Below are positions 3,074-30,685 of a stretch of DNA of 32,351 bases, piece after piece. The stretch comes from Chrysochromulina tobinii (taxonomy: Eukaryota > Haptophyta > Prymnesiales > Chrysochromulinaceae). Both the position numbers and the translations under genes were made by a program. The notes beneath the pieces were generated by a model, which saw only the letters and a program-made list of their open reading frames with translations, was not told the DNA's origin and did no database searches. Numbering within the stretch: the stretch's first letter is position 1; every line of letters starts with the position of its first letter. The stretch lies in the NCBI GenBank assembly GCA_001275005.1, contig JWZX01003326.1, forward strand, positions 1-32,351. The letters are read 5' to 3'.

Positions 3074-6000
3074 ATGCGCAAGGCCGAGACGTCCTCGTCC
3101 ATCGAGGTGCACTCGCTCGTGCGCGACCTGAAGAATGCGCCGCAAGAGCATAAAGCGCGAGCTGCCAAGCGGCTGTGTGTGCTGGTGAGCAACCAAGAGG
3201 ATGATGCCAGCGCCGTCGCCCTCGGCGTGGGCGTGCTGCCTGTGCTGATCGGGATGCTGAGCTCCGGCACCGACGGTGGCCAGCTGTACGCGTCCAGCTG
3301 CCTGGCGAGCCTCGCGGCGGCGGGTCACTCGGCCGTCATCGTAAAGGGCGGCGCAATCGGCCCGCTGGTGCAGGTGCTCAAGGTCGGCTCCATGGGAGCT
3401 GTGGCCGCCGCAGCGAGTGCACTGCTCGGGCTCTCGGAGGAGCACGCGCCCGAGCTGATCAAGACGAACGTGACTGCACCCTTCGTGCGCCTGCTCAAGC
3501 AGGGCAACACGGATGCCAGGGAGCACATCGCCTCCATGATCGCCAACTTGTCGCGCGCAAGCTTCGATGCGGAGGCGGCCTTCGTTGGCGCGGGTGCCGT
3601 CGAGGAATTGCTTCGAATGCTCTCGAGCGCCAAGACGTGCAACACCGCCGCGTGGGCGATCGCGAGCCTTTGCAGCTGCTCAGAGCACGTCGAAGCCATC
3701 AGTGCCGCTGGCGGTATCGCCAAGCTGCTCGAGCTGCTGAACACGTCGATCAATACGACGTCGCAGGTGGCGGCGGCCGCGGCCGTATCGAATCTCGCGC
3801 GTGACCACCCGCCGACGCAAACGGCGATCGCCAAGGCGGGTGGCATCGGGCCGCTCCTCGCACTGCTCGCGAGCCGCAGCCCACAGGCGCAGGCGCAGGC
3901 GGCCGAGGCCGTCGGACGGCTCTGCGCGCATCACCGCGACAATCAGGACGCGGTCGGAAGAATGGGAGGGGTCCCCTCACTTGCGGGGCTGCTGGCGTCG
4001 GGCACGCTGCCGGTGCAGGCGATGGCGGCCTTCGCCGTGTGCGAGGCGTGCCGAGGGCACGCCGACAACCAAACGGCCTTCACTGAGCTCGGAGGCATCT
4101 CGAATCTCGTCATGCTCCTGCGCCAGGCCACCTCGCATGTGGCGAGCGGAGTAGCCAGCACCACTACGTCGGACGGCTTCGTCGGACTGCGGCTGAACGC
4201 GGCGTCCGCGGCCGAAGACTTCGAGGCCGCCCGCACCGCGCACTACGAGGCGATCCGTGTCGAGACGGCCGGTGCCCTTTGGATCCTGTCGGAGGCGAGC
4301 GAGGCGAACCGCGTGTCGATCGCCGCCTCGGGCGCCCTTGCGCCGCTTGCGGCGCTGCTCGCGAGCGGCGGCGCGCGCGGCCGGGTGCATGCAACGCATG
4401 CACTCGCGCATCTGGCCATCGAGAATGCGGCGAATCAGCATGGGGTGACCACACTACTCGTGGGGCTGCTCGCTCCGTCCTCAGCGGTCGAGGCGCGAAA
4501 GGCCGCCGCGGAGCTGCTGTGGCGGCTCGTACGAGAGAACGATGCAAGCGTTGAGATCATCGCGGCGGCCAGCAGCGCGAGTGAGCTGGTCGAGTTGCTC
4601 AAGACGAGTGACGCCGACGCACGCGCCTTTGCGCTGTGGGCGCTTTCGCTCGCGATCGACGGCACGAAGCAGGCCACGGTTCTTGAGGTCGGAGGCGTGG
4701 CGCCACTGCTCGCCGTGCTTCGTACGAGTGGCTCGCTGCAACGCGAGCAGGCGGCGGCCGCGCTGGCACGGCTCGCGAACGGCTCGGCGGCCGCGCAGGC
4801 GGCGATCGCGGCCGAGGGAGGTATCTCGCCGCTCCTGAACATTGTCGAGGGCGTCAACTGCCGCGATGGCAAGGAGACGGCTGCGGCGCGTGTGCACGCA
4901 GCGAGCGCAATCGCCTCTCTCGCTCGCCTCGCAGCCAACCGCGACACCATCGTCGAGTCGGGCGGCATCACGCCGCTCGTCGCGCTGCTCAACGATGGTG
5001 AGGACGCGGCCAAGACTGGCGCGGCCGCGGCCCTCGCATGTATCGCTGTGGCCAACGCGAGCACCCCTGGTGCCATCGCGCAATCTGGGGGCCATCTCGC
5101 CCCTCGTGTCGCTGCTCACGGGCGAGCACGGCGCGGCGGCGCAGGAGGCCGCGGCGGGGGCTCTGCATGCGCTCGCGCACGACGCAGACAACCGGATCGC
5201 CATCGCCGAGGCGGGCGCGATAGGTCACCTCGTGCTCTTGCTCGGCTCCGCCAACCCATTGACGAGCGAGTTCGCCGAGGGCGCGCTCGTCCGCCTCTCG
5301 ATTGAGAATAGCAACCGAGAGCTGATCATTCACAAGCTCGTGGGCATGCTGTATGACAAGGGCAGCGAGGCGGGTGGAGAGGAGCAAGCGGCTGCCGCCC
5401 TCGCCAACCTCGCATCCGATTCGGACGCCAACCGCGATTCGATCGTCGAAGCGGGCGGCATCGCACCTTTGCTGTCCCTCCTCGAGACTTCGTCGTCTAC
5501 GAAGGCCAAAGAGAGGGCGATCGGGGCCATCTCGCAGCTCGCCTCGCGCCGCACGATCCAGAAGGAGATCGCCAAGGCAGGCGGCATCCCGCTGCTGGCG
5601 AGCGTGATCATTGCGTCCCAGTCGAATGGCAAGCAGGAGAAGGGGGCCGACATTGGGATCGCATCGAAGCTCTACGCACTCGCCGCCTTTGCCGCGTCGC
5701 AACTCGCCAAGGGCAACCGGCTCAACCAGACTGCGCTCGCCGACGCGGGCGCCATCCAACCGCTCGTCGCGATGCTCGGCTCGCCGAATTCTGACATGCA
5801 GGCCAACGCGGCGTGCGCGCTCGGCACCCTGGCCGAGGCGCACGCTGACAACCAGGCGGCGATTGCGCGGACGGGTGCCATCGCGCCGCTCACGTCCCTC
5901 GTGCGCGAGGGCGCGCCGCTCGTCAAGGAGATGTGCGCCGGCGCGCTCTGGGCGGTGTGTGATGACCATGCGCCCAATAAGTCCACCGTGACGAAACTTG

Positions 6001-9000
6001 GCGGCGTCGAGCCGCTCGTCGGTCTGCTGGTGAGCGGCGGCACCGAAGCGTCGCTGATCGCGTCCGTTGGCGCGCTCGTGTCGCTCGCGACCAAGCACCC
6101 GGAGAACCGCGAGGCGATCGCAAAGCTGCTGGTGGCCCGGCTGTCGAGCCGAGTGGCAATGGCGGGCGCGGGCGCCGTGCGTATGCTCCGGGCCGTCGGC
6201 ATGGTGTGCGATGAGGGCGCGTACCCCGCGAATCAGCTCGCCCTCGCCAAGGCGGGCGGCTTGCCGTCCCTCATAGCGTGGCTGTCGGGCAGCGCCGATG
6301 CGCGCTGGCTCGGGGGCAATCCGGATGCACAGCGCGAGGCGGCGCACGCCGTGCTCTCGATCGTGGCGAACAACGCCACACTGCAGGCAGCCATCGTGCA
6401 GCTCGATGCCATCCCTCCTCTGATTGAGCTCATCATCAAGGCCGAGCAGCAGGCGCAAGCCTACGCCGCACGCACGCTCTTCCATCTGGCCGCCACGCTC
6501 GAAGGCGTCGAGGCGATCGAGGCGGCGGGTGGCGTGGCGCCGCTTGTGCACCTGCTCTCGTCAGAGCATCCCCACCTCGTCGACGTGGGCGCCGTCGTCA
6601 TCTCACGCCTGACGACGTTCTCGGCGCATGCGGTGGCGGTCGCGGGCGGCATCGCACCACTCACGAAGCTGATCTCGATGGGCAGCCACGCCGCGCAGCA
6701 GCACGCGGCGTCGGCGCTGGCCGACATTGGCTCAGTGCCCGCGCATCGCGACGCCATCGCCTTTGGCGCGGAGGGCTCGATCCAGGCGCTCGTGCATCTG
6801 CTCGGTAGCCACGTGGCCGGTACGCCTGAGGTGGCGGCGCGTGCGCTGTCGCAGCTGGCGCGTGACGAAGCCGAGTGCGCCAACGACGGCGGCGTCAAGG
6901 CCATGGAGGCATCCGTGGAGGCGGCGAGCGGCGCGAAGCCTGGCGCGGCTCGTCGGCAGCTCATCCTCGCGTGCGGGGGCATCGACCGGCTGATCGCGAT
7001 GCTCTGGGCCATCCCAAATAAGGGTCTCGCACGGCGTATGTGGGACCTGATCTCGTCCATTGTCGGCTCCAAAGACAGCATCGAGGTGTTGAACGGCGAG
7101 ACCAACTCGATTTTGGATATGCAGAGCGTGGCGATCGCCGCCATGGTCAAGGCACGTGCCACTGAGAAGGCCGCGCTCGCCCAGAAGGTCGAGAAGCAGC
7201 AGCAGCATCGTGCCCAACACGCCGTGCCCGACAAGGAGCGCGTATCGGACAAGGGGAGTCCGTCGCAGAAGCGCTGGCAGGCCATTGCCAACGCTGCGAG
7301 TCCCTCGCGTACCGACGCGGCGCAGCAGCAAGCGCAGCAGCGTGAGGTCGTGGAGGCGCGCGAGGAAGCCGCTCTGGCGCTCGCCGATCTGGCGTACGGT
7401 GACAGCGCGATGCAGAGCGCCATTCTCGCCGCGGGCGGCGTGCCGCCTCTGCTGCGCCTGATCCGCGAGGGCTCGGCCGCCTCGCAAGAGGCGGCCTCCC
7501 GTGCCATCTGGCATCTGTGCGCATCGCTCGAGAGCCAAGGTGTGCTCGTGGCGTGCGGTGCGGTCGAGGAGCTCGTCGCGCTCAGCAGGAATGGCTCACC
7601 CGCCGCGCAGGACACGGCGGCGGCAGTCATCTCAGACCTCGCAAAGGGCGCCATCCTCGAACGTGAACGGCGAGCACGCGACTCGGGCATCGGGCTCGAG
7701 TCGATGCTGGCGGATGAGACGACAGATCCTGAGGAGAGCCTACCACCACCAGCCTCGCCCCTGCCACCAGTGCCGATCCCGCCGCTGGCGCTCCAGCCCT
7801 CAATGAAATCCGTCTTCCACGGCGAGGCACCGCTCCTGCCTTCGCCCATCGCGCAGGCCCCGAGCGAGGTTTTGTTGGGCTCGGCGCAGAGCACTGCCAG
7901 CACTGATTGGAAGCCGCCTCCCGGCGACAGGCTGAACGCAATCGCAGCGGCGGGCGGCATCGTGCCGCTGGTGAGCCTGGTGCAGTCGGGCAGCCAAGCC
8001 GGTAAGGAGCGCGCCGCCTCGGCGCTGTGGCACCTGGCCAACGACCCATCCAGCCAAGTGGCGATCGCCAAGGCGGGCGGCATCGCGCCTCTGGTTCAGC
8101 TCCTTGACGACGGCACGTTGCAAGGCACCATCTTTGCGGCGGATGCACTCACCCACCTCGCACGCGGCCATGCTGACAACCAGGCGGCCATCGCGAAGAA
8201 GCTCGTCGGGCTCCTCGAGGTCGACCGACCCGACGGAACGCTGCGGCGCGCGGCGCGCGCGCTCTGGAAGCTCGCCGACGAGAACGAGGGCGCCCCCGTC
8301 CGCGTGGTCAATGCGGGTGCCATCTCGCCACTCGTCGCACTTCTAGGCTCAGGCTCGATGGAGGCCAAGAGTGAGGCCGTCGGCGCGCTCACCTGCCTGG
8401 CCACCAACGACCCGAAGAGCCAACTCGCGATCGCGACTGGGCTGGTCGCGCTGCTTGGCTCTGGAACGGCCGAGTCGCAGGAGCATGTCACGTGCATGCT
8501 CCTCGGCCTGTCCGAGCAGCCGGACAACCTGCGCGCGATTGCCCACGCGGGCGCGGTGCAACGGCTGATCGTGCAGCTGCGCGGCGGCGGCGCCCTTGAG
8601 GCCGCTTCGGCACGTACCAGCCTGCGTGCGCAGGAGCTCGGCGCTCAAGTGCTCCTGCGCCTGTCCCGGGACGACGAGGCCAACGCCCACGCCATCGTGG
8701 CGCACGGCGGCCTTCGCTACCTCGTGGCACTGCTGAGCGCGGAGAGCGAGGAGGCGCAGGTGAACGCCGCGGACGTCCTGTGCGACGTGGCGCGCCGCTC
8801 GACCGAGATCCAATCTCGAGTGGCAGCCGAGGGAGCGGTCGAGATCCTTGTGAAACTCTTGAGCGCCACTGGACCCCTCCGGGCACGGACCGCCGCGGCG
8901 GGTGCACTCTGGAGCCTCTCGGTCGGTCATGCGGCCATCCAAGCGGCCGTCACCGCCGCTGGAGCGATCCCCGAGCTCGTGCAGCTGCTGTGCACCGACG

Positions 9001-12000
9001 ACGCAGGCGCGCAGCGCCAGGCGGCCGTTGCCCTCGCTGCGCTGGCTGTCGGAGGACACTCGATCCAGGGCAGTATCACGCGCGCGGGGGGCATAGAGCC
9101 CCTCGTCCGTCTGCTCGATGCGGCGGCGGCCCGCACCCAAGGCAGCACCGCGGCCCAAGCCGCGACCGCGCTGGCGGCGCTCGTGGCGAACCATCCCGCA
9201 AACCAGGCGGCCGTCGCCGCCGCGGGCGGCATCGAGCCGCTCGTGGCCATCATTCGCGACGCGGGCGCAGAGGACGCCAAGGAGGAGGCAGCGACAGCCC
9301 TGTGGGCGCTCACGGCCAGCCATCCGCCCAATCAGACCGCCTCGGCCGAGGCGGGCGCGATCGTGCCGCTCATCGCCATGCTTGGAGCGGGAGGCACGCG
9401 TGCGCAGGCGCAGGCTGCGAGCGCACTCGCCTCGATGGCCCTCGGGCACAGCACCAACCAAAGCGAGATCGCGAGCATGCTCGTGCAGCTGCTCAATGCG
9501 GAAGGAGAGGTGGACGAGAGCAAGGGCACGAAGGCCGCCCGCGCTATTTCCCGGCTTGCGCGCGCGCACGAGGCCAACCAAGCGGCCCTCGCGGCTCACG
9601 GCGCCCTCGTGTCGCTCGTGCGCCTGCTACGATGCACATGCCTCGACTACCTGCCCGACGGCGTCACAGCCGCGCTAGGCTCACTCCGCGCGTGCCGCGA
9701 AGTGATGATTGTTGGGGGCACGCCCATCGCCACGCCGCTGCACACACCGCTGCACACGCCGCTGCACACGCCGCTGCACACGCCGCGCTCCCTCAGCAGC
9801 AATCTCCTGCGGCGCGAGATCGCATGCGCACTCTGGAGCATGGCGGATGGCTCGTCCGCCAACCAGGAGGCTATCGCCGCTGAGGGCGGCGTGCCGCTGC
9901 TCATACGCGCTGCTCAGCAAGGACTTTGAGGCGGCAGTGCAACGGGAGGCCGCCGGAGCCCTATGGTCCTTGGCCTCGCAGCTGCCCGCCATCCAGCGGC
10001 GCATTGCGGACTCGGGCGGACTGGCGCCTCTCGTGGGTCTGCTGTCGAGCAGCCACGTGCCCACTCAAGAGACCGCCGCGGGTGCACTTTATAGCCTCGC
10101 ATCCCTCGCGACGAACCGGACCATCATCGCTGAGGTCAAGGGCGTTGCGGCGCTCGTGGGAGTTGTCGAGCGTGGCTCCGCCCAAGGACGGGAGCAGGCC
10201 GCTGGAGCGCTGCTCACTCTTGTGCAGGCCAACTCCGCCAACCAAAGCGCCGTGTCGAGCGAGCTGGTTGCCAAATTGGGCGAGGGCTCGAAGGCGACGG
10301 CCGAGGCGCAGGGCGAGATGACGAATCTGGTGCACCGACTCTCGCTCGACTCGAACAATCGCGCCGCACTCGCAAAGGCCGGCGCTATCCCTGCGCTGGC
10401 CCTTCAGATGCAGAAGGCTGCCAAGGCGGGCGCGCCCGGCGCGCCGCGCACCATGGTCGCCGCCGCGGCGGCCCTCGCGCAGATTGCGCTCAGGTCGCCG
10501 CAGGTGCGGATTCAGGTGACGGCGCAGCTCATCTCACTGCTCGGCGCGCCCGAGCCCGAGGTTCGTCAATGCGCCTCGTCCACCCTGCGCGAGATGGCCG
10601 CCGAGGGCAGCGCCGAGTCGCAGGTGACGGTGGCCACGATGCCCGGCGGTATCGAGCGCATCGTCGCGCTGCTGCGCGAGGGCTCTGTCGAGGCGCAAGA
10701 GTACACGCTCTGGATGCTCGCGGTGATGACGGACGCGGCCTCCAAGAGCTCGATCGCGCACTCCCCATGCACGCGCGCCGTCGTCGAAGTCTTCCGCAAA
10801 AGCTCCGCTGCAGCGGCGAGCGCCGCCGCGGGCAAGGAGCTCCTACCCGAGGGCGCCGTGCTGAGCGCCCTCGCGCAAGAGCACGCGGCGGCGGTGCTCG
10901 CGCTCCTCGCCTCCGACATCCCGGGCGTCGATGAGGAGGTTCGGTCGCGCAACTCGCTCGAAATCTCCGCGTCAGGCGGCATTCGGCCGATGGTGAGGCT
11001 GCTGCGTGACGGGACCGACGGCGCCAAGAGGCACAGCGCCACGGCGCTCACGCAGCTCGCGTGCGGCCCGATGGGGCGCTCGAGCAGCATGCAGATCGAG
11101 ATGGCACGCGCGGGCGCAACGGCCGCCTTCGGCGCGTGGCTTCGCGAGCCGTCGCTCGGCCCTCCAGAGCTCGCAGCGCAGGCGCTCGCCTGCATCGCCA
11201 ACCGCAATGCAGACACGCAGACTCTCATTGCGGAGGAGGGCGCCATCCCGCCGCTCGTGGCGATGCTGCAGGCAGCGGAGCCCTCTGACGAGGCGCAGCG
11301 CTGGGCGGCGAGCGCACTCGCGGCGCTCGCGCAGGACCATCCGGTCAACCAGATCACCATCGCGGAGGAAGGAGCCATCGGTGCGCTCGTTGATCTTCTC
11401 AAGTGCCCCACGTCGGGCGCCGCGCACGAGAATGCGACGCGCGTACTCTGGCACCTGGCAGCCGACACCGACAACCAGTTGAGCGTCGCACGCGCGGGCG
11501 GGCTGGCGCCGCTGGTCGCGATGCTCTCGGCCGAGGCGCCCAAGACACAGGAATGGGCTGCGGCGGCCCTCTCCGCCCTCTCGCTCGACTGCGCCGAAAA
11601 TCAAGTGGCCATCGCACGAGCTGGCGCGATCCCAAGACTCGTGTCGCTCATCGGCTCGCCCAGTGACGAAACCCAGCTCTACGCGCAGGCGGCGCTCGTG
11701 CTCATGGCCAGCTCGTGCCCGCAGACGCGCTGCGCCGTGGTTCAGCCCCTCGTTGAGCTGCTCGATGAGTACCGGCTCGCGACGGCGCAGATGAAGGCTG
11801 CGGAGACGCTCTCGATGCTCGCAGCACGCTCGACCGCCAACCGCACGGCGATTGCCCAGGCGGGCGCCATCGCGCCGCTCGTGCGGCTGCTCGGCGACGG
11901 CACGAACGCGAACAAATCCCAGATCTCCGCCGCGGCCACCTTGGCCGACCTAGCACGCGCGGCCTCGGACCGCGCGGCGATCGCAAGTGCGGGTGGCGTC

Positions 12001-13449
12001 GGTCCACTTGTCGAGATGCTGCGTGCGTCCAACATGGAGGCGCAGGCCAAGGCGGCGGGCGCGCTCTTGCACCTCTCGTCGCTCGCAAGTGCGCAGACGA
12101 GCATCGTCGAGCGCAACGGCATCGCTCTCCTCGTGGCCCTTCTCGACTCCGAGCGTCTGTGTGCGGCCAACCACGCCGCGGGAGCGCTCTGGCAGGTGGC
12201 CTCGACTGCAGCGGCCAAGGGCGCCATCATCAAGGCGGGTGGGCTGACGAAACTCGTGGCGCTGCTGCTGCGCACGGATTCGGCGGAGGCCAAGGAGCCC
12301 ATAGCGGCGCTTCTCGCGGACCTCGCACGCACCGGCCACAAGGGTGACGCAACCAAGGGGACTCTCGTGGCCGCGGGCGGCATCGCGCCGCTCGTCGCGC
12401 TGCTCGAGGCGTCATCTGTCGACGCCCAGAAGCACGCGGCATGCGCACTGTGGGGACTCACAGACGGCGTGTCGGCACATCAAGCGGCCGCGACCGCCGC
12501 CGGAGCGGTGCCGCGGCTCGTCAGCCTTCTCGGGAACGAGAGTGAGGCGCAGGGCTTCGCCGCCGCGGCGCTGTGCAACCTGGCCGAGGATGCGCACGCG
12601 CGCCAGCAGCTCGTCGACGCCGGAGCTGTGAAATCTCTCCAAGAGATCTCCAAGGGGCCTCAGACGTGGCTGCGCACGCAGGCCGTCAACTTGCTCAACC
12701 AGCTCGACGTGTTCGCACCCCCCTCAGATGCGGAGGTCGGTCGGAAGATCCATCTCCAGAAGACAGACCTCCACAAGAGCCAAAAGGTGTCGCTGCAGGC
12801 GGCCGTGGTCGCCGCGAACGCCGCCGCCAAGCTGAATGCGCCTCTCAAGAATGGCGCCATTCTCTTCGATAAGGGCGTGCCGGCGGCAGCGACGGAGACC
12901 TCGAAGGAGGCGGCCCCGCCTCCCAGGGCAGCGGGAGAGGAAGCGCTCGCCGCGGCGCTCGCCAAGGCTGCTGCCGCGTACGAAGCTGCCAAGGCAGTGG
13001 CGGAGGTGGACGAGAATCTTGATGACCATTGCAAGACGCCGAAGGCGAAGCGCACGAGCAAACGGCCTCCCAAGAGTGGCGCCAAGGACAAGGAGCCCCC
13101 GACAACGACGCCAGTGGCGGCCAGAGATACTTCAAGCGCTCCGAACAGCAGCCGCGAGACGGGCGCCGCATCGCGTGACAACTCGCGGCCATCCTCACGA
13201 TCCTCTTCGAGGGTCAACTCACGCAACGTCTCGCCGCGCAACGGCTCGCCGCGCAACGTCTCGCCGCGCAGCGGCTCGCCGCTCAACAGCGCGCGCGCTG
13301 GCTCGCCCAGTGTCTCGGCAGAGCGTGCGCCTACAGGGAACGCTGGAGGGGCGTCGAGAGCTAAGCCACAGCGTAAGCGCACGCCCAGCCCGAACGCGAG
13401 GCGTTCGAGCCCTTCATCGCGAACGGGCGAGAGCGTGAGAATCGCTTGA
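3074..13449 (+). CDS. Giant armadillo (ARM) repeat protein, about 68 repeats, with two +1 frame shifts
   Basis: The frame from ATG 3074 carries ARM repeats of about 42 residues to about 5087, continues in the next frame to about 9905, then in the third frame to TGA 13447-13449. Each repeat has the signature AG(A/G)I-x-PLV-x-LL, then AxxAL-x-LA and NQ-x-AI. Counting that core gives about 68 repeats. Removing one base at each shift yields about 3,457 residues without introns. Two non-ARM linkers occur: a Gln/Lys-rich one (about 7150-7340) and a Pro-rich one (about 7670-7910). A TPLH tetrapeptide repeat interrupts the array at 9736-9784. After about 12710 the array ends in an Ala/Lys segment and a basic Ser/Arg tail with NVSPRNGSPRNVSPRSGSP, resembling microtubule- or RNA-binding tails. 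ARM solenoids bind proteins; the partner is unknown. The shifts may be assembly errors, real mutations or recoding. Confidence 0.9.
5087..5091 (+). other. +1 shift in the ARM gene at a G5 run
   Basis: In the first frame the repeat reads AIAQSG then loses the ARM pattern (GHLAPRVAAHGR). Dropping one G from the five-G run restores SGAISPLVSLL, which joins perfectly to the repeat in the next frame (GEHGAAAQEAAAGALHALA). A one-base insertion in a homopolymer is the simplest explanation. Confidence 0.85.
9736..9784 (+). repeat. 12-bp coding repeat encoding TPLH x4
   Basis: The unit ACGCCGCTGCAC (with one CCG-for-GCC type variant) is repeated four times in frame within an ARM repeat, between the VGGTPIA segment and PRSLSSNLL. 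It replaces the PLVxLL part of that repeat, so one ARM unit is degenerate here. Confidence 0.85.
9900..9929 (+). other. Second +1 shift in the ARM gene, ending in TGA 9927-9929
   Basis: The second frame reads AAEGGVPLLIR and then AAQQGL-stop. One base less near 9906-9910 (CGCGCTG read as CGCCTG) gives GGVPLLIRLLSKDFEAAVQREAAGAL, an ideal ARM repeat continuing in the third frame. As at the first site the shift is one extra base in a GC-rich stretch. Confidence 0.8.
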
Positions 13450-20155: not shown

Positions 20156-23100
20156 ATGGGAGACTCTCAACAGGTGAACAACCTGCTGCAGCAGCTCGCC
20201 CGGCAAACCGCGTCGCTCGCGCAAGTTCAGGCGGAGTGGGAGCGCCGGCAGTCGGCGACTCCCAGGTCGCTCCGGGTGCGCCTCGGCGATGCAAACTATG
20301 AGGTGCGGCTCGAAGCACTTGAGGAGCTGGCCGAAGCCTTGGGCAACGAGGATCTCTCGCTTGGCGATACAACCATCATTGCGCGGCGCCTGCGCGAGGA
20401 GGGTTCGCTCGCACGGCTCGCCCTGCTTGTGCAGGATGACTCAAATGAGGTGCTCACAAGGGCCCTCTACTGCCTTGGTAACTTGTGCTCCGACTCCTTC
20501 GACACGGCGAGCCGCGAGACGAAGAAACTGCTCTTCGAGCGGGACGGCAGCGGTGCGCGAGCGCGGCGGGGCGTGACGAGCGCTGACCGCTAGCCCACCA
20601 TCGCGAGCCTACCCGCGACCTCCCCCACACCTCCCCTACACCCGTCTGAGCACACGCGAATTATCCCCCACCTTTCGACTCCCGCCCCGCCCGCCCCGCC
20701 CGTCCCGCCCGTGATCTCAGGCATCAGCGGCGCGCTCCTGCGCTGCCTGGCCTCGCCCGACCTCGAGGTGGTCACGTACGCGGCGGGGCTGTGCCTCAAC
20801 CTCTCCAATGAGCACATGTGGTGCCAGTTACTCCTCGAACAGGGTGGCGCGGACCGCTTCGAGGCGATGGTGGCCCATGACGACTCGCTCATCGCGCGCT
20901 ACGCGGCCAGCACGCTGGTGAACATGTCGGCGCGAATCCCGGGGCTCGAGCTCATCCCAACCGTCGAGCGCGACATCAGAAAGTACGGGGACCTCGTCAA
21001 AGCCGTCGAACTCGGGCTAGTGCCTTCGGGCTCGATTGAGAATTGGAGGCCGGCCGCCAATGTCGTGGCGGCGATCGCCGCGCGCGCCTCGCCTCGTGGG
21101 AAGAAGGAGATGCAGGCGGCGGCAGCCCTCTCGCGGGTGCGTAAAGAGGCGGAGATGGCGGCCTTCAAGGCGGAGCAGGAGCGGCAGGTGGCCGAGAGGC
21201 GACGGGCCGAAGAGGAGGAGGCGGCGTATCTTCTGAGGCTCGAGGCTGAGGCGAAGCGCGAGGCGCAGCTGGCGGAACGCGAGCGCCTGAGGCTCGTGGC
21301 CGAGGCGAAGAAGAAAGCAGAGGATGAGGCGGCGGCAGCGACCAAGGTGCAAGCCATCACGCGCGGCCGGTCGGATCGCGAACTGACAAAGGGCCTGAAG
21401 GCGAAGAGAGCGGCAGAGCAAGCGGAGGTGGAGCGCAAGCAGCTTGAGGCGGAGGCGAAGAAACGCGCCGCGGACGAGGCGAAACGACGCGCCGCGCTGG
21501 ATGCGGAAGAGCGCAAGCAGCTTGAGGCGGCGGAGAAGGAGGCGCAATTGGCACGCGAGAGGGAGGAGGCAGAGGCGAAGGCGGCGGCCGAGTTGAAGGC
21601 GGCGGCTGATAAGGCGGCGGCCGAGGCGAAAGCGGCAGCCGACGCAAAGGCGGCGGCCGAGGCGAAGGCAGCGGCCGAGGCGATGGCCGCACGGATGGCA
21701 GCGGAGAACCATGCGGCTACGAGTATCCAAGCCACATTTCGTGGCCGGAGAGATCGCGGGCGCGTGGCGGTCATCCGTCGACAGAACGTCGTCGAGGCCG
21801 ACGCGGCCACCACCATTCAGGCGCACGCACGCGGCCATGCGGACCGTTGCATGGTGGCGAAGCAGCGCGCTCAGATCCTCGCGCGGAGTCGGCTGCACAA
21901 GGGGATCTCTACAGTGAAGCTCACCACGGACATGGAGGCACAAGCCAAGCAGACGGAGCTCGAACGTCGTGCAACGACCAAGATTCAGGCGCGCGTCCGC
22001 GGGCGCTCGGCACGCAAGAAGGTCAAGGCACTCCGTGCCCAAAATGAGGTTGAGCGCCAGGCGGCGACGACGCTGCAGGCGTTCGCGCGCGGGATGCAGG
22101 ACCGCGCGTACGTGTCGGCCATCCGAGCGCAGATTCACAAGGAGCTGCGCGCCGCCATTCGGATGCAGAAGCATGCACGTGCCATGGTCGCGCGGCGGCG
22201 TGTGGCGGCCATGCGGGGGCAGCGTGCCGCCGAGGCTGCCACGCTGCTCGTGGTGGAGGCGGCGCATGCGGCCAAGGAGGCGGCGACGCATGCGGCTGAG
22301 GGGGAGGCGGCGGCGGCGACAGCGGCAGGCACGGCGATGGCTGCCATGACGCAGGCCACGGCCGCAGAGGCTGAGGCGCTCAAGGCCAATGAGAGTGCGC
22401 TCCGCGCCCAAAAGGAGAAGCAAGTCGATGAGTGTACGGCGGCCTCGAGCAAGGCAGTTGAAAGCGTCGCGGTGGCCGCGGCGGCAGTGGAGGCCACGGA
22501 ATCGGTCGTGAGCGCCGCGACCACAAGCGCAACCGCGGCGGCCGAGGCCTCTACGACCGCCCAAACCGCGCTTGCAAAGGCCAAGGAGTGCTTCGCCCAG
22601 GCGACGCACGACCCGCTGCCCTTGGGCACACTGGAGGCGCCGGCTCGCGCCACTCGCGCGGCGGCGATGGAGAGGCTGGAGGCGGCTGCGGAGTCGGCGG
22701 CCGCGGCGGCGCAGTCGGCGCGTGCGGCGGCGGCGTCCCTGGCCAAAGTAGAGATGGCCGTGGCGCGTGCCGGCCAGGCTCATGCCGCCGCCAAGGAGGC
22801 GGCAGTAGCCGCGAGCGCCGCGAGCGCCGCCACGCGCGCGACGGCTGCCAAGGAGCGCCTCAAGAAGCATGCGAGGGCGCAGGTCCTCGCGGCGGGGCTC
22901 CGACTCAAAGCCGAGGAGCTTTCGCGCCAGCGTGCAGAGGCGGCGCGCCGGGCGGCGGCTGCGCGCGCGGGGCTCCGAAAGGCGGGAAGGACGACCGCGT
23001 TCCAGGCGGGTCTCAATCTCAGGGCACAGGAAATGGAGAGGGAGCGTGCACAGGCGGCGGCCGAGGCGGCGGCCGTGGTGGCCGAGGCGGCCGAGGTTGC

Positions 23101-26100
23101 GCTTGCAGCCAGCGAGAGGGCGATGACGGCGGCGGCGGAGGTGGTCTCCGGGGCGGCGGCAGCTGCACAGTCGGCCGCGGAGGCGGCGGACGCTGCAGCA
23201 GAGGCGATGCGTGCGCAAGCGAATGCGGCGGCTGCGGCGGCGACTAAGGACGTTGACGGCTGCATGCAGGCCGCCAAGGCGGCGGGGGCGGCCGCTGCCA
23301 AGGCTGCGACGTCGGCCGCGGCCGCCCAGAGCAAGGTGGCGCCGGCCGTAGAGGGATCGGGCGTGAGCACGGCCGCCGAGCGCGAGGTTGGGGCAGCGCT
23401 GGTGAAGGCCGCCGAGCACGTGGCGAAGGCGTCGCGCGACCCGATGCCCGATGGGCCTGCGGGCGTCGTCGCACTCGAGACGCAGACCGCGGCAAAGAGC
23501 TTCGAAGCGGATGTCAAGATGGCAGCAGTGTCGGTGACCGAGGCGGCGAGGGCGGCGAGCACTGGGATGGTGGAGGCGAAGCAGGCTGCCCACGCGGCCA
23601 CTGACTCCGCGGCCAAGGCCACGGCGGCCGCGGAGGAAGCTGCCGCGATTGTGGCCAAGGCGCGTAAGGAGCAGGCCAAGCGACGCATGCTCAAAGCCGG
23701 CCGGACAGGTGTGATGACGGCCCACCTCCAGAAGCGTGCCGAAGAGATCGAGGCTGAGCGGCAGGCCGAAGCGGCACGCCATCGATGGAAAAAGGGGGGG
23801 CGCGCCGCACTCATGACGGCAAGCCTACAGGCGAGGGCAGAGGAGCTCGAGAGAGATCGCGCCAAGTTTGCGGCCGAGGCTGCCGACGAGGCAGCGCAGG
23901 CGGCGGCCGCGGCGCAGGATGCCGCGCGCAAGGCGCGAGCGGCTGCGGCGGCAGCTGCCACAGCCGCCACCGCCGCGGCAGAGTCGATGGCGTTGGCATC
24001 CGCTTGTGCCATGGATGGCGACAAGGCACGGGAGGCGGTCGACAAAGCGGCTACCACCAACGATCTGGGCCGGGCGATGGTGATGGCCCGCACCGCGTGC
24101 GCGGCGGAGGCGACGGCGAGCGCGGCGGCAGAGCGGGCCAGGGGCGAGGTGGAGCCTGCACGGCAGGGTGCAGAGGCAGCCAAGATGGCGGACGAGGAGG
24201 CGACCGAGGCCCTCAGCAAGGCAGCCGAGGGTGCCGAGAAGGCGTTGCGCGACCCGATGCCCGATGGGCCTGCGGGCGTCGTCGCACTTGAGACGCAGAC
24301 CGCGGCCGAGACGAGCTCCGAAGAGGCCACCAAGGCGTCGGTGGCGGCGTCGAGCGCCTCGGTGGCGGCGGAGACTTGCCTAGGTGAGACGAAGGCCTGT
24401 GCGGCAGCCGCGGCGGAGTCAGCGACCCATGCGCATGCCTCGGCTCAGCGGGCTGCCGAGCGAGCCCAGCTGATCCTCGAGGCTGTGGTGGCTGAGAGGG
24501 CAAGGGCTGTGGGCGAGGCGATGGCCGAGGCCAGGCAGGAGGGCGAGGCGGCCAAGGCGGCGGCACAGAAGGCGGCAGAGGCCGCATCCACCGTTCAGAT
24601 GGCCTCTGACGCTTCCCAAAAGGCGGAGGCGGAGTCCCAAAGTGCCCGCGAGAGCGCCCTCAAGGCAGCCGAGGCACTGCAACTCGAGACGCTCCTTACA
24701 CACGCAGCGGCGAGCTATGAAGCGGCGGGCCGAGCGGCGGCGGCGGCGGCGGCGGCGGCGGGCGGCTTCGAACCGGTGGCCAAGAGCGCGGAGGAGGCAG
24801 AGGCGGCGCGCGCAAACGCTGCGACCGCGCACGCGGCCGCCGACGCGGCACGCGGGAGCGCCGTGACGAGCGCCGAGGGGCCGACCTCCGCTGACAGCGC
24901 CGTGACGAGCACCGTGTCGAGCGCCGTGACGAGCGCCGAGGGGCCGACCTCCGCTGACAGCGCCGTGACGAGCGCCGAGACGAGCGCCGAGACGAGCGCC
25001 GAGGGGCCGACCTCCGCTGCTGGCGGCGAGGGCACCGCGCCCGCCGCCGAGGACGGTGGCGAAAGCAACACGGCTGCCGCCGTTGACGTTCCGAATCCGA
25101 GCGCTTCGGAGCCTTACCAAGCCGCCCGCACGGCCGTCGCCACGCGCCTCGCCGACGCGCTCACAGGCTTGAGCGTCTTAGGGGCGCTGAGTTGGCTCGA
25201 CCCTGGAGTGGTTACGTTTGCCCAGTTGACGTCGCCGTTGCTGATTTGCAAGGGCGAGGCGAAGGCGAACGCCAAGGATGCTGCGGCTGCGGCGGGCGCG
25301 GCCGAGGCGGCCGCGGCCGCGGCGGCCGCCTCGAGCGTCTCAGCGCAGTCTGCCATCGGTGCAGCCGCGTTGTCATGCACGGCCGCCAAAATGGCGGCCG
25401 AGGTAGCGACCGGTAAGGCGCAGGAAGTGCTCGAGACACTCGTGGCCGAGGCGGCCGTGAGTGTGAGCACGGCGGCGCGCGCGACGCAGCAATCAGATGC
25501 GAAGGTGGCGACCTTCGCGGCCCAAACACTCAAGGCGCTCGAGGCCGTGCAGTCGACGGCACTCGAGACGGCGGCCGCCGAGGCAGACACCCTCGCGGCG
25601 CTCGACACGGCGCTCGTGGAGGCGGCCGAGTCGACACGCGTGCGCGAAAAGTGCCTCGGGCCGGGCGAGGCGTATCATGCGGACTCGAGCCTCGCCAAAG
25701 CCAAGGAGGCGGAGGCAGCCGCGAAGCGCGCCGTCGCGGGCGCCGCGGCCACGGAGCATAAGCTCAAGGCAGTCGAAGCGTCCGAGAAGCTCACTTGCGA
25801 GGCCGACGAGGACGCGCAGGCGGCGCTCGCTTTAGGCAATGGGAGCTTGCAATTGGTGCTCGAGCGCGCCGCGCTGGCGACTGGCGCGCGGATGCCGTGG
25901 CTGGCCCCTCAGGAGGCTGGGAAGCCTGTGAGCGCCGCGGCGGGCGCGAGCGTCGACGAGGCCGTTCGGATGGCCCTGGAGGCTGTGAAGCCCGTGAGCG
26001 CCGCGGCGGGCGCGAGCGTCGACGAGGCCGTTCGAATGGCCCTGGAGGCTGTGAAGCCTGTGAGCGCCGCGGCGGGCGCGAGCGTCGACGAGGCCGTTCG

Positions 26101-29100
26101 GATGGCCCTGGAGGCCGCCATAGCCGCAGAGAGATCTGCGAGCACCAGGGCGGCTGCCGCGGATGCGCTCGCGCAAGCGAGGCAGATGACTCAGGCGGCC
26201 GTCGAGCAGGTGACTGATGACCCTTGAGGACCCTTGAGGACCCTTGATGACCCTTGATGACCCTTGATGACCCTTGATTGCCACTGATGATCACTGCTCG
26301 GCTCCGTCGAGCAGGCGACCTTGGCAAAGTGCAGCGCCGTGACCGCGGCCACGCAGGCGCAGGAGGCCCTCGAGGCGGCCATAAAGCGTAAGTTGGGCGA
26401 CGTGGCCCTCGGAGCGATCTTGGCGATGAGCCGCGCCATTCGAGCGTACCGCAAGCGCAAGCGACGCACGCTCGAGATTAACAAGTACGCTGCCGAGAGC
26501 TGGGGGAGCCTCCAAAGCCCTGCATGCACGTGCTCACCACGGCGCCCTTTCGTCACGAGCGCTGGGGGAGCCTCCAAAGCCCTGCATGCATGTGCTCACC
26601 ACGGCGCCCTTTCGTCACGAGCGCTGGGGGAGCCTCAAGAGCTCTGCATGCACGTGCTCACCACGGCGCCCTTTCGTCACGAGCGCTGGGGGAGCCTCCA
26701 AAGCCCTGCATGCATGTGCTCACCACGGCGCCCTCTCGTCACTGACGCGCCGAGCTGCCTGCATGCATATGCTCACTACGGCGCCTCGTCCCCCTCCCCA
26801 CAGGTACGCAGCCGAGCTCTGGGGGGGCCTCTCGGGCGGCGCGCTCGCCGTGGTCGAGGCGACGCGTACCGCCTTCGATGCGTGCTGGGTGCATGCAATG
26901 CGCCGGTTGCATGCGGCCGTTCGGATCCAGGCGCTCTTCAGGTGGAAGGTAGCACACCGCCGGGTAGTGGCCGAGCAGGCAGCGCGCTACGCGGCAGCGT
27001 GCCGGAAGCAGTCGGCATGGCGCGGCTGGCTCGGGAGGCGGATACGCATGCGGCTCGAGGCCCAGATCCGTGCGCACGTCCAACGGATTCAGACGTTTCA
27101 GCGCATGCTCGTGGTGCGTCGCTACTACCGAGTGCGCCTACCAGTGATTCGGACGGATCAGATGCGCATGCGCCTCGCGCGCGCGTGCACGATCAGCGCC
27201 ATCAGCAACGTGCAGGCGGCGCTCAAGGTCGAGTACCAGCGCGCGTATTCGCTCTCGATGGCCAAGCGGGCGGCCGAGGTGCTCGCCCAAGCTGCCGAGG
27301 ATGTCGTCGCCACTGAGGCCGATGCGCACGCTGCCGCGCTCGCCGGTGCCGAGGCAAGTGCGGCGGCGATCGAGGCGGCCAACGGCGCGCTCGCCGCCGA
27401 GCGCGAGGCCCTCGACGCCAAGCAGAGGGCCCTCGAGCAGGTGAGTCTCGTCAATTGCCTCTGATTGCCTCTGATTGCCTCTGATGGCCACTGATGGCCA
27501 CTGATGGAGCCCCCATGCCCCTCGAGCATGTGAGTCTCGTTAATGGCCTCTGATTGCCTCTGATTGCCTCTGACTGCCACTGACGGAGCCCCCATGCCCC
27601 TCGAGCAGCTCTTGGTGCCCTTTGACGCGAGCTTGGGATACGTGACGGCGTCCAAAGGGCTCGACCAGGTCGATCTATGCGCCGTCAAGGCTTCTCTCGC
27701 CGAGGCGGCGGCGAACGAGGTCGTCGGGCACGCCCAGCAGGCGGTCGATTGGGCGGTGCTCGCCAGCCGCCATGCGAGCGCGGCGCGTACGGCCAACGAG
27801 GCCGCCGAGGCGGCCGTGCTGCAGGTGAGTCTCGTCAATTGCCTCTGATGGCCTCTGAGGGCCTCTGAGGGCCTCTGAGGGCCTCTGATGGCCTCTGATT
27901 TGCCGAGGCGGCCGTGCTGCAGGTGCGCTTCGCGCGCAAGCTCATCGTCGTGCTACTCGGCCAGAGCACGGGCAAGACCTTCCAGGCCATCTTTCAGCCA
28001 AACGACGCGATTGGCCAGCAAGCGCTGCAAGTCTTCAAGGCGGCGCAGGCGGACGCGGCGCGCGCCGAGAGGGCGGCCGCGGCCGTCGGCGCGAATGCTG
28101 GCAACTCGACGCGCAACGCGCACCGCGCCGAAACGGCGGCCGCGCGCGCGCAGAAGGCGCTCAGCACGGCGCGCGACGCGGCGGACCTGGCGGCGCAGCA
28201 GGCTGTGAACGCAGTCGTGCTGTCTGTGAAGCGCGCGCAACGCATCCGATCCTCGCTCTTCCACAACGACTTGGACGCCACCGCCGTTTTCGGCGAGCCT
28301 TCGCCGCCGCTCATCTCACCACGCACCAAGAACAGCTCGCCACAACGCTCCAGCTCGCCGCCCCGCTCAGCGACGCGCTCGTCGATGCGCAGCGCGCACG
28401 CCGGCGGTGGTTCCACGCTCGGCGGTGGCAGCTTCGCGCCGCCGCAATTCGAGCCGCCGCCGGCGCCGCTCTTCCGCGAGGGCTCGTTGGCGGCGGAACT
28501 GGCGGCGAAACATGCGCCGCCGCCGCCCACGCCGCCCCTCCCCTCATCCCCCCGCTCGCCCTCCCCCTCATTGGATCCTTACCCATCATACCCATCGGAC
28601 TCGGACACAGAGTTGGGGCACCGTCCCTCACCCAGCGGCCGCTCCAACCAGCCCCCCGCCCACGACGGCGCGCCCTCGCCCAGCGGCCGCTCCAACCAGC
28701 CCCCCGCCCACGACGGCGCGCCCTCGCCCAACGGCCGCTCCAACCAGCCCCCCGCCCACGACGGCGCGCCCTCGCCCAACGGCCGCTCCAACCAGCCCCC
28801 CGCCCACGACGGCGCGCCGACGCCCCGCCCGCCACGGCGCGCGCGCGCTCCCGCGGTGGTGGGCGCCGATTTCGTCAGGCTCGAGGACGGGAGCATTGCG
28901 CTCGTCGATCTGGTACGCGACGATCGAGGGCCCGTCTTGGCGCCGCTCAAGCCGAAGCCGTACACGGGCGGCCTGTCTAGGCAAGGCTCCAGAGGTGCGC
29001 TGACGTATGCTGGTACACATGGCGATCATGCATGCACGTGCTCACCACGGCGCCTCGTCCCCCTCCCCACAGGTACACATGGCGATCGGAGTGCTGGCAC

Positions 29101-30685
29101 GGCGGCGGGAACTCCCATATTAGGAAGTCCAGACAAGCCGTTGCCCCCTGTGCGCCATCCTTCCCAAAGCCTTGGCGCGACGCCCCGGCAACAGGCATCC
29201 CATATTAGGCAACAGGCATCCCATATTAGGCAACAGGCATCCCACGCCACCGCGCGCCCTGCCACGAGCTGGGTGCCTACGCCAGCGCCTCTGGCGGGAT
29301 TGCACGCCACCGCGCGCCCCGCCACGAGCTGGGTGCCTAAGCCCGCGTCCCTCGCGTCCCTCCCGCCTCGCGACGCGACGGCCTCCGCGGCGACAGGGCC
29401 GTCCCATCCGGCGTCCCATCCGACGTCCCATCAAGGAGCACCCATGGGGCGGTATGCGTGGGAGAACCAGGGACTACGTGCGCTCCCCTCGAGTATGTAC
29501 GAGCGGGTGGTGACGGCCAGCCGCGAGGGAATGGCGACTCCGCAAGCGCGCTCGGCGGCGTCCACTCCATACCATGCCAAGCCATACGAGCTCGATCGAT
29601 CTCGATACGATCTCGAGGCGGGCCTCGAGGTCGAGTGGCCAACGACGTCCATGCCGTCCGTACCCTCTGCCCAGCCTCACTCGGCCAACAGGGCTGCGAC
29701 GGGCCGCTCGGTGCGTCCCACCGCCACGTCGAGCGCCGTGTCGAGCGCGGGGCTACAGCTCGACCCGGAGATTTTCGCGAGCTACACGGGGCCACAGCAC
29801 GAGACGCGCCCGCCCACGACGGCGGACGGCAAGCCGCTGGGCACGCCGCAGCCCCAGCTCGCCGCGCCGCGTTGGGCGCGCGCTTCGGTCGCGCAGAGGA
29901 TGGAGAAGGCGAGCGCCGACGGGCGGCTCCCCGCGCTGCTCTCGCCGGCAGACCACCGCACGTGGAGCTTCGAGCAAGGAGACTTCGAGAAGGCCGAGCG
30001 CCGTTTCGAGCGCCAGGATCGGCGCGAGCGGCGCCTGCAGCGCCGGGCGGCGCGCCAGGCAGCGGCCGAGCGCCGTGACGGGCGCACCGCGGAGGGGCGG
30101 CACTCAAATCCTCAGCCGACCCACCTACATGGAGACGCGGAGATGTGGACTGGGGCTGGCCAGATGCAGCCAGATGCAGATGCAGCCAGATGCAGCCAGA
30201 TGCAGCCACCGCCCTCGCCCTCGTATCGACCCCGGACGACGCCGATCGACGAAGAGCCCGAAGGGTCCAGGTACTTTGACGGCGACGACGAGGGCGACGA
30301 GGGAGGCGACCGGACGACCGACGAAGAGGCGATCGACGAGGAGGAGCGCTTCCTAATTAGGGATGAGCGCTTCCTAATTAGGGAGGAGCGCTTCCTCGTC
30401 GACCAATACGGCCCCCGGATGCACCCAGTGCCGCTCTCGTCGGTGTCGCCACGGCCGCCAGGGCACGGCCACTCGCCGCCCAACACGGCGCCCATGCATG
30501 CACACAGCCCACGCAGGCGGCGCAACGCAGGGCGCGCAGCTGCACCGCCGGCGGGAGGGATGCTGTCCCAGCAGGCACAAGGACAAGCACAGCCGCGCGG
30601 CCGAACGCCTGCAAGCTTCGCGTCGTATGATGAGGCTGCCATGTGGCTCGGCGCCCGGCCGCGCGTGCTCACAGCGCCGGCGTGA
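20156..30685 (+). CDS. Giant ARM / IQ-motif / Ala-rich coiled-coil protein (seven exons, ~3,203 residues)
   Basis: Exons: 20156-20552, 20721-26209, 26315-26484, 26804-27440, 27609-27824, 27923-29012, 29073-30685. Total 9,612 nt, in frame throughout. Residues 1-280 form ARM/HEAT-like helices (LYCLGNLCSD, AAGLCLNLSN, AASTLVNMS). A Glu/Lys/Ala coiled coil follows, then six IQ-like calmodulin-binding motifs (about 340-620; IQATFRGRRDR, IQARVRGRSARKK). Residues 620-1960 are extremely Ala-rich helix with internal modules: a KAGRT...RAEE unit four times and a DPMPDG unit three times. Exon 4 adds about three more IQ motifs (RIQALFRW, RIQTFQRM). From about 2420 the protein is Pro/Ser-rich and disordered, with several coding minisatellites. 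The domain mix suggests a cytoskeletal, flagellar or scaffold protein regulated by calmodulin, but I recognise no named family. The tail and repeats are probably fast-evolving. Confidence 0.85.
20553..20720 (+). other. Intron 1 of the ARM/IQ gene (168 nt)
   Basis: Donor GTGCGC, acceptor GTGATCTCAG, phase 1. It joins ERDGS-G to ISGALLRCL and so reunites two halves of an ARM repeat. The unspliced frame stops at about 20591. The intron is pyrimidine-rich with CCCGC repeats (about 20683-20710). Unlike the other five introns of this gene it has no flanking exon duplication. Confidence 0.85.
24863..25020 (+). repeat. Coding tandem repeat, VTSAEGPTSADSA units
   Basis: Three copies of a GTGACGAGCGCCGAGGGGCC-type segment with shorter TSA/ETSA units between them give alternating VTSAEGPTSADSA and ETSA peptides. 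All stay in frame inside exon 2 and break the coiled coil. Confidence 0.85.
25922..26119 (+). repeat. 66-bp coding repeat x3
   Basis: Three 66-bp units start at 25922, 25988 and 26054. Each encodes 22 residues from KPVSAAAG to RMALEA(V/A). They differ at only a few bases, so the amplification is recent. The array ends about 90 bp before the first family A intron. Confidence 0.95.
26210..26314 (+). other. Intron 2 of the ARM/IQ gene: introner-like, family A (105 nt)
   Basis: Donor GTGACT, phase 0, joining AAVEQ to ATLAKCSAVTA. A direct repeat of 16 bp with one mismatch (CCGTCGAGCAGG-T/C-GAC) spans both exon/intron borders, at 26199-26214 and 26304-26319. The intron's AG therefore comes from the duplicated copy of the upstream exon end. 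The body is a 10-bp tandem repeat. Without splicing the frame ends at TGA 26225. Confidence 0.85.
26211..26300 (+). repeat. 10-bp tandem repeat GATGACCCTT / GAGGACCCTT in intron 2
   Basis: About eight to nine units in exact 10-bp register fill almost the whole intron: central units are identical or differ by T/G at one place, and the last two have drifted. Compare the GATTGCCTCT/GAGGGCCTCT units of introns 4 and 5; all fit GA-K-K-R-CC-Y-Y-T. Confidence 0.9.
26485..26803 (+). other. Intron 3 of the ARM/IQ gene: introner-like, family B (319 nt)
   Basis: Donor GTACGC after AACAA, acceptor CCCCTCCCCACAG, phase 2 (AA-G = Lys), joining EINK to YAAELWGGL. The first 28 nt of the intron (26485-26512) repeat the first 28 nt of the next exon (26804-26831) with four mismatches, so the intron start would encode YAAESWGSL. 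The body is a 62-bp tandem repeat and the last 42 nt match the end of intron 6 with three mismatches. Confidence 0.85.
26499..26753 (+). repeat. 62-bp tandem repeat, about four units, in intron 3
   Basis: Units start at 26499, 26561, 26623 and 26685 (exact 62-bp period), followed by a degenerate unit. Each unit contains GCTGGGGGAGCCTC (the duplicated exon segment), GCATGCA and GTGCTCACCACGGCGCCC. The amplified unit thus includes both exon-derived and element-derived sequence. Confidence 0.95.
27441..27608 (+). other. Intron 4 of the ARM/IQ gene: introner-like, family A, internally duplicated (168 nt)
   Basis: Donor GTGAGTCTCG, acceptor CCCTCGAGCAG, phase 0, joining QRALEQ to LLVPFDASLG. CCCTCGAGCAG stands at both borders (27430-27440 and 27598-27608) and a third copy, ending CAT, lies in the middle (27519-27529) followed by another GTGAGTCTCG. 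The periods are 89 and 79 bp, differing by exactly one 10-bp repeat unit. The inner acceptor is lost (CAT for CAG), so the doubled element is removed as one intron. Confidence 0.85.
27825..27922 (+). other. Intron 5 of the ARM/IQ gene: introner-like, family A (98 nt)
   Basis: Donor GTGAGTCTCG, acceptor GTGCTGCAG, phase 0, joining EAAVLQ to VRFARKLIVV. A perfect 24-bp direct repeat (27804-27827 and 27902-27925, from GCCGAGG to GCAGGTG) spans both borders. Its spacing, 98 bp, equals the intron length. The body is GAGGGCCTCT/GATGGCCTCT repeats in 10-bp register. Its first 20 nt match intron 4. Confidence 0.9.
28625..28816 (+). repeat. 48-bp coding repeat x4
   Basis: Four 48-bp units (28625, 28673, 28721, 28769) encode the 16-residue SPSGRSNQPPAHDGAP with Ser/Asn variation at one position. 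They are near-identical in DNA, in frame, in the disordered tail. Confidence 0.95.
29013..29072 (+). other. Intron 6 of the ARM/IQ gene: introner-like, family B, minimal (60 nt)
   Basis: Donor GTACAC, acceptor CCCCTCCCCACAG, phase 1. A perfect 16-bp direct repeat, GGTACACATGGCGATC, lies at 29012-29027 and 29072-29087; intron length equals its spacing. The remaining 42-44 nt match the 3' part of intron 3 in the same gene. The length is a multiple of three with no stop, so retention would insert 20 residues. Confidence 0.8.
29187..29360 (+). repeat. 21-bp (RQQASHI) and 60-bp (HATARPATSWVP) coding repeats
   Basis: Three 21-bp units at 29187, 29208 and 29229 encode QQASHIR. Immediately after, two units of about 60 bp encode HATARPATSWVP followed by (T/K)PA(P/S)LA(G/S)L. 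Both arrays stay in frame. Confidence 0.9.
30346..30396 (+). repeat. 24-bp coding repeat ERFLIRDE
   Basis: GAGCGCTTCCTAATTAGGGA is repeated twice with a third partial copy, encoding ERFLIRDERFLIREERFLV. The unit contains CCTAATTAGG, a perfect palindrome. Confidence 0.9.

Follow-up and report, generated by a model that had tools for sequence, protein, structure and literature searches.

Introner families with a 10-bp minisatellite body and long, variable target duplications in the haptophyte Chrysochromulina tobinii

The origin of new spliceosomal introns is a long-standing question, which is raised in a concrete form by one gene of Chrysochromulina tobinii. The gene is located on a contig of 32,351 nucleotides (JWZX01003326.1, here C2167), analysed at its full length and referred to as the window, in a genome assembly (GCA_001275005.1) of 53.15 Mb and 2253 contigs. 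It occupies positions 20711..30685 of the plus strand, with a putative start, and its product contains an IQ motif. Taking out five introns (introns 2-6) leaves a single frame of 3074 codons with zero internal stops. A sequence-only reading of the window had described introns 2, 4 and 5 as introner-like, filled with 10-bp tandem repeats and closed by a duplicated exon end, and had proposed slippage or local tandem duplication as their source. The question is where such introns come from and what is copied when a new one is formed. Among the 8000 candidates scored, no relative of the gene spanning introns 2-5 was found at E 0.001. The neighboring gene (window 3074-13449) is a very long armadillo-repeat gene, whose closest metagenome relatives are roughly 40-55% identical. 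Chrysochromulina tobinii is among the named relatives of the armadillo-repeat gene, and the best solved relatives of a light-harvesting protein of this genome bear the names light harvesting protein, iFCPI-7 and FCPI-7, which are haptophyte entries; both make a haptophyte source likely.

The repeat arrays that had been claimed for the three introns were found at the expected positions (26215-26278, 27454-27505, 27546-27583 and 27841-27898), and the proposed formula GA-K-K-R-CC-Y-Y-T fits in general, with A replacing Y in some units. Intron 2 (26210..26314, plus strand) starts with the donor GTGACT, continues with the 10-bp array and ends with an exact 11-bp repeat of the upstream exon end, CCGTCGAGCAG, which can be extended only with a gap. 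It carries the repeats without the donor block of introns 4 and 5. Intron 4 (27441..27608, plus strand) belongs to the donor-bringing type A1 and is composed of two tandem units, with a second donor at 27530 and an inner acceptor in which CAG is now CAT. The left copy of its 11-bp exon-end repeat is the exon end CCCTCGAGCAG (27430..27440, plus strand). The tail that precedes the right copy, GGAGCCCCCATG, is also present in contigs C1626 and C500, and for this reason the repeat of intron 4 may not be a fresh target duplication. Intron 5 (27825..27922, plus strand), the other A1 member, ends with a perfect 21-bp duplication of the exon end GCCGAGGCGGCCGTGCTGCAG (27804..27824, plus strand). The common start of introns 4 and 5 is present, at 25 nt and not the 20 nt first given. 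Similarly, the exon-end repeats of introns 2, 4 and 5 are real, with exact lengths of 11, 11 and 21 bp in place of 16 (one mismatch), 11 and 24 bp. Introns 3 and 6 are members of family B. Intron 3 (26485..26803, plus strand) consists of 62-bp units in tandem; the element gives CCCCACAG, and the donor GTACGC derives from a diverged copy of the downstream exon start, with an exact match of 6 nt only. The donor of intron 6 (29013..29072, plus strand) is a 15-bp duplicated exon start, GTACACATGGCGATC, and the acceptor CCCCACAG is again that of the element.

Three types of element, A1, A2 and B, follow a common plan, X-D-[element]-D-Y, where D is the duplicated target stretch. In A1, the donor is located at the start of the element and the right D ends in AG, which supports the initial proposal that the element supplies the donor and the duplicated exon end supplies the acceptor. 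The A2 type, unremarked in the sequence-only reading, is built from the minisatellite of A1 in the opposite polarity: the element ends with CCCTCATCAG, while GT or GC opens the left D. Family B differs in sequence; its element measures roughly 40-50 bp and usually has CCCCACAG at its end, and its left D is the donor. The sole candidate for a full-length element with both an A1 donor and an A2 acceptor (locus L085) is probably a coincidence of its exon and was rejected. An A2-type acceptor (CCTTCATCAG before GTGCC) is also present in the window at position 16385 of the minus strand, at the junction of two overlapping minus-strand frames, and probably marks an older acceptor-type introner in that gene.

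The presence of the duplication was scored at each site against controls, with L021, a copy of L016, left out of the chained counts and later ones. A score of at least 12 was reached by 34 of the 57 A1 chains (control 1/1140), 25 of the 83 A2 chains (control 1/1660) and 8 of the 20 family B sites (control 0/190), the last being a sample from near the top of the listing. A wider A1 set gave 42/75 against a control of 9/1500, where part of the hits reflect genuine sharing of tails or of repeat sequence. At a score of at least 9, the numbers rise to 40/57 for A1 (control 27/1140), 33/83 for A2 (22/1660) and 11/20 for B (2/190), and the duplications measure 9-45 bp in A1 (median 23) and 11-57 bp in A2 (median 22). 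The description of the introns as introner-like elements with a minisatellite body and long, variable duplications is thus upheld. No duplication was detectable (score below 9) in 17/57 A1 chains, 50/83 A2 chains and 9/20 family B sites. These rates hold for the selected sites and not for all introns, because most A1 loci were picked on the basis of the donor, and the small A2 loci on that of the acceptor. When the score is at least 12, the best repeat adjoins the splice end of the element in 32/38 A1 and 23/33 A2 introns; the remainder, judged by eye, mostly resembles small edge indels or substitutions, or low-complexity sequence. The left D ends in CAG in 34/40 A1 cases and starts with GT or GC in 30/33 A2 cases.

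Multiplication of the units in tandem seems to follow insertion. Multi-unit chains account for 13 of the 57 A1 (donor-type) and 19 of the 83 A2 (acceptor-type) chains, and introns of 2 to 4 units are exemplified by L027:7633-7786, L011:4376-4745 and L085:207-460 (minus strand). Consecutive units in these three could be spliced AG|GT or AG|GC without an intervening exon, so that removal in steps would yield an identical mRNA. The near-identical contigs C1354 and C1759 (99.6-99.9%) are distinguished by a single tandem unit of about 118 bp, which may be a polymorphism or an assembly difference.

The elements are not confined to the window. The donor 19-mer GTGAGTCTCGTCAATTGCC has 25 exact copies in the genome (0 for the reversed control) and 151 with up to 3 mismatches (4 for the control), so the further copies called for by the introner interpretation are present. 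Three-unit arrays of the 10-bp repeat give 4005 overlapping hits, the A2 acceptor-end pattern GAKKRCCTCCCTCATCAG gives 1457 exact ends and the family B core gives 2041 matches with up to 2 mismatches, each against 0 for the reversed control. Such counts are not counts of introns, because tandem units inflate them, and for copies beyond the first 100 listed for a pattern, the status of intron is an extrapolation. In the loci inspected, the flanks of the copies are unrelated. The window introns are therefore members of introner families present in thousands of copies, and not products of local slippage. Carriage by viruses was also considered and rejected: exact searches of IMG/VR gave no match to either the donor 19-mer or the three-unit repeat.

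Coding phase and homology indicate that the elements would be removed as introns, with the reading frame kept. Among introns with 90 nt of flank, the phase is consistent after removal in 34 of 38 A1 and 26 of 32 A2 cases, compared with 17 and 14 when unspliced; chance alone would give one third. Among introns whose length is not a multiple of 3, the spliced form is consistent in 19/22 A1 and 14/17 A2 introns and the unspliced form in 2/22 and 2/17. The orientation of the elements is mostly sense to the gene. In the codon model, the decided cases with a duplication are 27 sense to 2 antisense for A1, 17 to 4 for A2 and 2 to 0 for B; in the large loci, all acceptor motifs give 15 to 9 and all B cores 16 to 2; arrays give 23 to 8. 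This tally is not taken as proof, since many cases are ambiguous.

An example of a gene with several such introns is a CHD-type helicase (locus L009, contig C88). Its seven introns have bodies of A type or B type, and in six of them the length is not divisible by 3. Removing all seven yields 429 codons without a stop, against 26-29 stops per frame in the unspliced sequence, and the product aligns with CHD4 (6ryr; E 2.5e-97). The alignment covers query residues 16-370 and with them each of the seven joints, and is weakest near the fifth. A clear terminal duplication is present in three of the seven introns (29, 16 and 35 bp, one mismatch each); the fourth has a 44-bp repeat inside, and the first, third and seventh have weak or diverged repeats only. 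A comparison with a relative that lacks an intron is offered by P0121, an open reading frame from a metagenome, which agrees with the helicase at 207/209 residues of the exon segments. At the protein level, it runs without an intron through the sixth joint (VLIFSQFTMML), and at the fourth it reads through an apparent family B intron, with the A1 units absent. Such a 99%-identical relative, empty at one joint and apparently without the A1 part at a second, points to recent intron gain. More distant relatives cross five of the joints with 0 gaps (P0135, 78% identical) and six with 2 gaps (P0125, 73%), and splicing by their predictors is possible. At L009:4667-4863, inspection by eye places two A1 units exactly at the donor position of the presumed family B intron. 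This B intron is probably older than its A1 pair, and new introners may land on existing donors.

What is copied can be read from a few introns that carry the letters of another gene. The 95-bp intron of L101 (contig C1159) matches the intron of L075 (C1619) at 90/95 positions, from GT to AG, and the flanks of the two are unrelated. The last 45 or so nucleotides of the L075 intron repeat its own upstream exon (45 bp, 2 mismatches), and this exon codes for part of a GRIP domain. The exon of L101 does not match the tail (own repeat score 4), and no new long duplication is seen there. Within the genome, a 22-mer from the start of the tail is limited to two places, L101 and L075, even when 2 mismatches are allowed. 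The host of L101 presumably belongs with proteins resembling strawberry-notch, an identity that Pfam does not support. A similar situation is found in L104 (C1453), an EMP70 family gene (Pfam 6.9e-33 across the joint), whose tail is like that of C1800; its EMP70 piece has no PDB match at 0.001. The intron of L013 (C500) carries the tail common to C1626 and window intron 4, and the product is aligned across the joint to midasin (6qta, 5.6e-15), the best chain being 8ql1, named NDE1 (3.4e-22). L018 (C1444) has the tail of L015 (C736), at a site matching the last 10 bp of that tail. The copies in L101, L104 and L013 are of full length, with exact ends and own repeat scores of only 4. Only a few such foreign-tail pairs were found; these few daughters with exon letters of another gene suggest that new introns can be copied from introns that are already spliced. 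Excised intron RNA is favored as the template because the copied unit runs exactly from GT to AG, including the exon-derived letters of the other gene.

In many copies, one end of the element is fixed and the other is not. The variable end (3′ in A1, 5′ in A2) falls at differing points of the repeat. Microhomology with D at this joint was measured in single-copy introns, with tandem chains and scores below 12 dropped (34 A1, of which 19-32 testable, and 18 A2, of which 12-16 testable). It averages 2.36-3.05 in A1 against 1.37-1.68 in shuffled pairings (p 0.0005-0.002), and 1.5-2.0 in A2 against 0.72-1.17 (p 0.0035-0.03). A stricter period-based test, in a set that includes tandem cases, gives 0.94 against 0.39 for A2 and 1.5 against 0.47 for A1. 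Terminal inverted repeats are not seen in 51 A1 elements, where the mean longest match is 3.94 compared with 3.93 after shuffling. The bases around the free end of D, at the 34 A1 and 18 A2 sites, lack the A/T-rich consensus of an L1-type nick, and poly(A) was not noticed at the introns. For these two reasons a classic LINE is not indicated, and an endonuclease of another type may act at these sites. The motif YTGAY, which is branch-point-like, is present in 222 of 264 10-bp units.

Taken together, these features can be described by one scheme, in which the mobile unit of the introner families is, at least sometimes, the excised intron, copied into staggered breaks from which only splice-neutral products survive. 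We give this scheme roughly even chances. Copies of intron sequence would enter protosplice-like sites (AG|GY) at breaks with nicks about 10-45 bp apart, and the fill-in between the nicks would duplicate D. Many of the survivors would keep one exact intron end, whereas the other end would break off within the repeats, where a few bases of microhomology are present. An A1 copy, with its 5′ end preserved, would be spliced with the AG that closes the right D, and an A2 or B copy, with its 3′ end preserved, with the GT or GC that opens the left D. In either polarity the mRNA would be unchanged and the copy would survive. Copies with both ends, which do exist, would be neutral only if hardly any new D, or none, is formed. 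Shortened copies may still be spliced, because many of the 10-bp units carry the branch-point-like motif. The units would later multiply in tandem, again leaving the mRNA unchanged. The copies, the duplications, the fixed and variable ends, the restored frames, the intron missing from the relative and the transfer of a whole intron are observations; what we infer is the act of splicing, an RNA intermediate, target-primed synthesis and the enzyme involved. Counting against the scheme are the chains in which no duplication was detectable and the helicase gene, where a clear terminal duplication marks only three of seven introns.

The fuller version of the scheme, in which intron RNA is reverse-transcribed into the staggered breaks, is held with somewhat less than even confidence. 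In this version, the long variable duplications would give the missing splice site, the branch-point-like minisatellite would keep truncated copies spliceable, and the unit defined by splicing would carry exon tails from host to host. The genome contains reverse transcriptases, with 26 RVT_1 matches, 22 of them over the cut-off, none tied to the introns. Five stretches that were read (L089-L093) have long open frames with a reverse transcriptase, three of them with RNase H and one also with a 3′-5′ exonuclease domain; no endonuclease domain was found in the five.

The original proposal of slippage at exon ends, with introns arising independently of each other, draws on the multi-unit chains, on the tandem difference between the two near-identical contigs and on the boundary 'mirages' described in amphioxus (PMC3087553). 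It does not account for a donor block, an acceptor block and a repeat found at hundreds to thousands of places over many contigs, nor for sampled copies that often have private duplications, nor for the foreign-tail copies, in which a whole intron is shared by unrelated genes. Tandem genomic duplication meets the same obstacle, as the bodies are common genome-wide and the D part alone is local. Slippage is therefore not supported as the source of these introns and is considered highly improbable, the least probable of the explanations. A non-autonomous DNA transposon, of the sort put forward for introners in other algae but with target duplications of unusual length, would explain the dispersed copies and the division of the two splice sites between element and target, as in several families presented in PMC9860276. 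The duplication length is not fixed, whereas 3-9 bp are given for previously characterised families; the A1 elements have no terminal inverted repeats, although these are also absent from some such families; and one end of the element is variable. The strict form of the model is already contradicted by the variable length and end, in agreement with the previous view that these introns do not reflect cut-and-paste transposition with a fixed duplication, and the model as a whole is very improbable.

A stronger competitor is the repair of breaks at the DNA level, in which paired nicks are filled in, giving a tandem duplication, a patch of minisatellite intron is captured by microhomology from another locus and selection keeps the patches that abut a splice site, with no RNA involved. 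Variable duplications and microhomology are expected under such repair, the repeats are easy templates, and tandem duplication may be active, as the unit of about 118 bp distinguishing the two contigs illustrates. Exact GT and AG ends, and the movement of a unit from GT to AG with an exon-derived tail into unrelated flanks, are not themselves predicted by repair, unless selection removed everything else. The exact intron ends could, however, arise by selection on DNA-level insertions, which counts against the reading based on RNA. Repair without RNA is accordingly kept as a tentative, less probable explanation. It is also conceivable, if unlikely, that two processes operate: reverse splicing for L101, L104 and L013, whose low scores and exact ends recall fungal introner-like elements, and an unrelated mechanism for the copies flanked by duplications. 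Both classes have the same families and the same fixed ends, and a single process plus selection suffices. The best reading thus remains one process that, together with selection, accounts for both polarities and for the classes with and without duplication.

The proposed copying of excised introns into breaks can be followed further in this material, as introner copies number in the thousands within a single genome and those sampled often have readable insertion scars. The exon-derived tails act as natural barcodes, which identify parent and daughter and mark the limits of the copied unit, and therefore the question of RNA or DNA is directly testable.

Several known systems share parts of this picture. 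Direct repeats of 4-30 bp (mean 11.4 bp) at or near the borders of 213 introns were read as insertion scars in the survey PMC11782384; they resemble D, but the survey concerns assorted introns and not a mobile family. In PMC3087553, amphioxus 'mirages' are described as tandem duplications across intron-exon boundaries that leave regular splicing undisturbed. The boundary duplications presented here would likewise be splice-neutral; 'mirages' are local, whereas the copies of one sequence described here are dispersed. Introners of Amoebophrya are also strain-specific and flanked by repeats; unlike the present ones, they have inverted repeats, direct repeats of 3-5 nt and mostly non-canonical splice sites (PMC7789003). 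In the open-licence literature, covered mostly at the level of titles and abstracts, no description was found of minisatellite introners with long variable duplications or of daughters carrying tails. The insertion of LINE- or SINE-like elements by target-primed reverse transcription (TPRT) offers a mechanistic parallel, with variable duplications, one fixed end and the other end truncated with microhomology. The present elements differ from it in the absence of an A/T nick consensus and of noticed poly(A), and in a fixed end that is a splice site, and none of the RVT_1 matches is tied to them as a partner enzyme.

The closest counterparts are the introners of Gozashti et al. 2022 (PMC9860276). 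In that paper, known introners are for the most part attributed to DNA transposons; for fungi an RNA route has been proposed, and the introner-like elements found there, as cited in it, are interpreted as products of reverse splicing. The fungal elements are exact copies of whole introns without duplication, as are L101, L104 and L013, whereas many of the copies described here have long duplications (score of at least 9 in 40/57 A1 and 33/83 A2) and a truncated end. Introners with one target-derived splice site are described in both polarities; the target duplications of previously characterised families are 3-9 bp, with examples of 4 and 8 bp, and the words 'tandem', 'nested' and 'minisatellite' are absent from the main text of the paper. 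One of the reported families, family 5 of a Chrysochromulina sp. (TARA_PON_109_MAG_00232), has its own 5′ splice site, no terminal inverted repeat and a 4-bp duplication, and A1 is similar to it in bringing the 5′ splice site without such repeats. The example published from that Chrysochromulina genome (scaffold 114, 1755-1824) has no counterpart at the corresponding positions of C112-C115, a comparison of little weight, as the contigs may be numbered differently. As in those introners, many similar introns of C. tobinii are located in unrelated genes and take one splice site from the duplicated target. They differ in duplications that are variable and reach from 9 to 57 bp, in two types with a 10-bp minisatellite body that serves both polarities, and in a variable end with microhomology, tandem multiplication and exon tails copied along with the intron.
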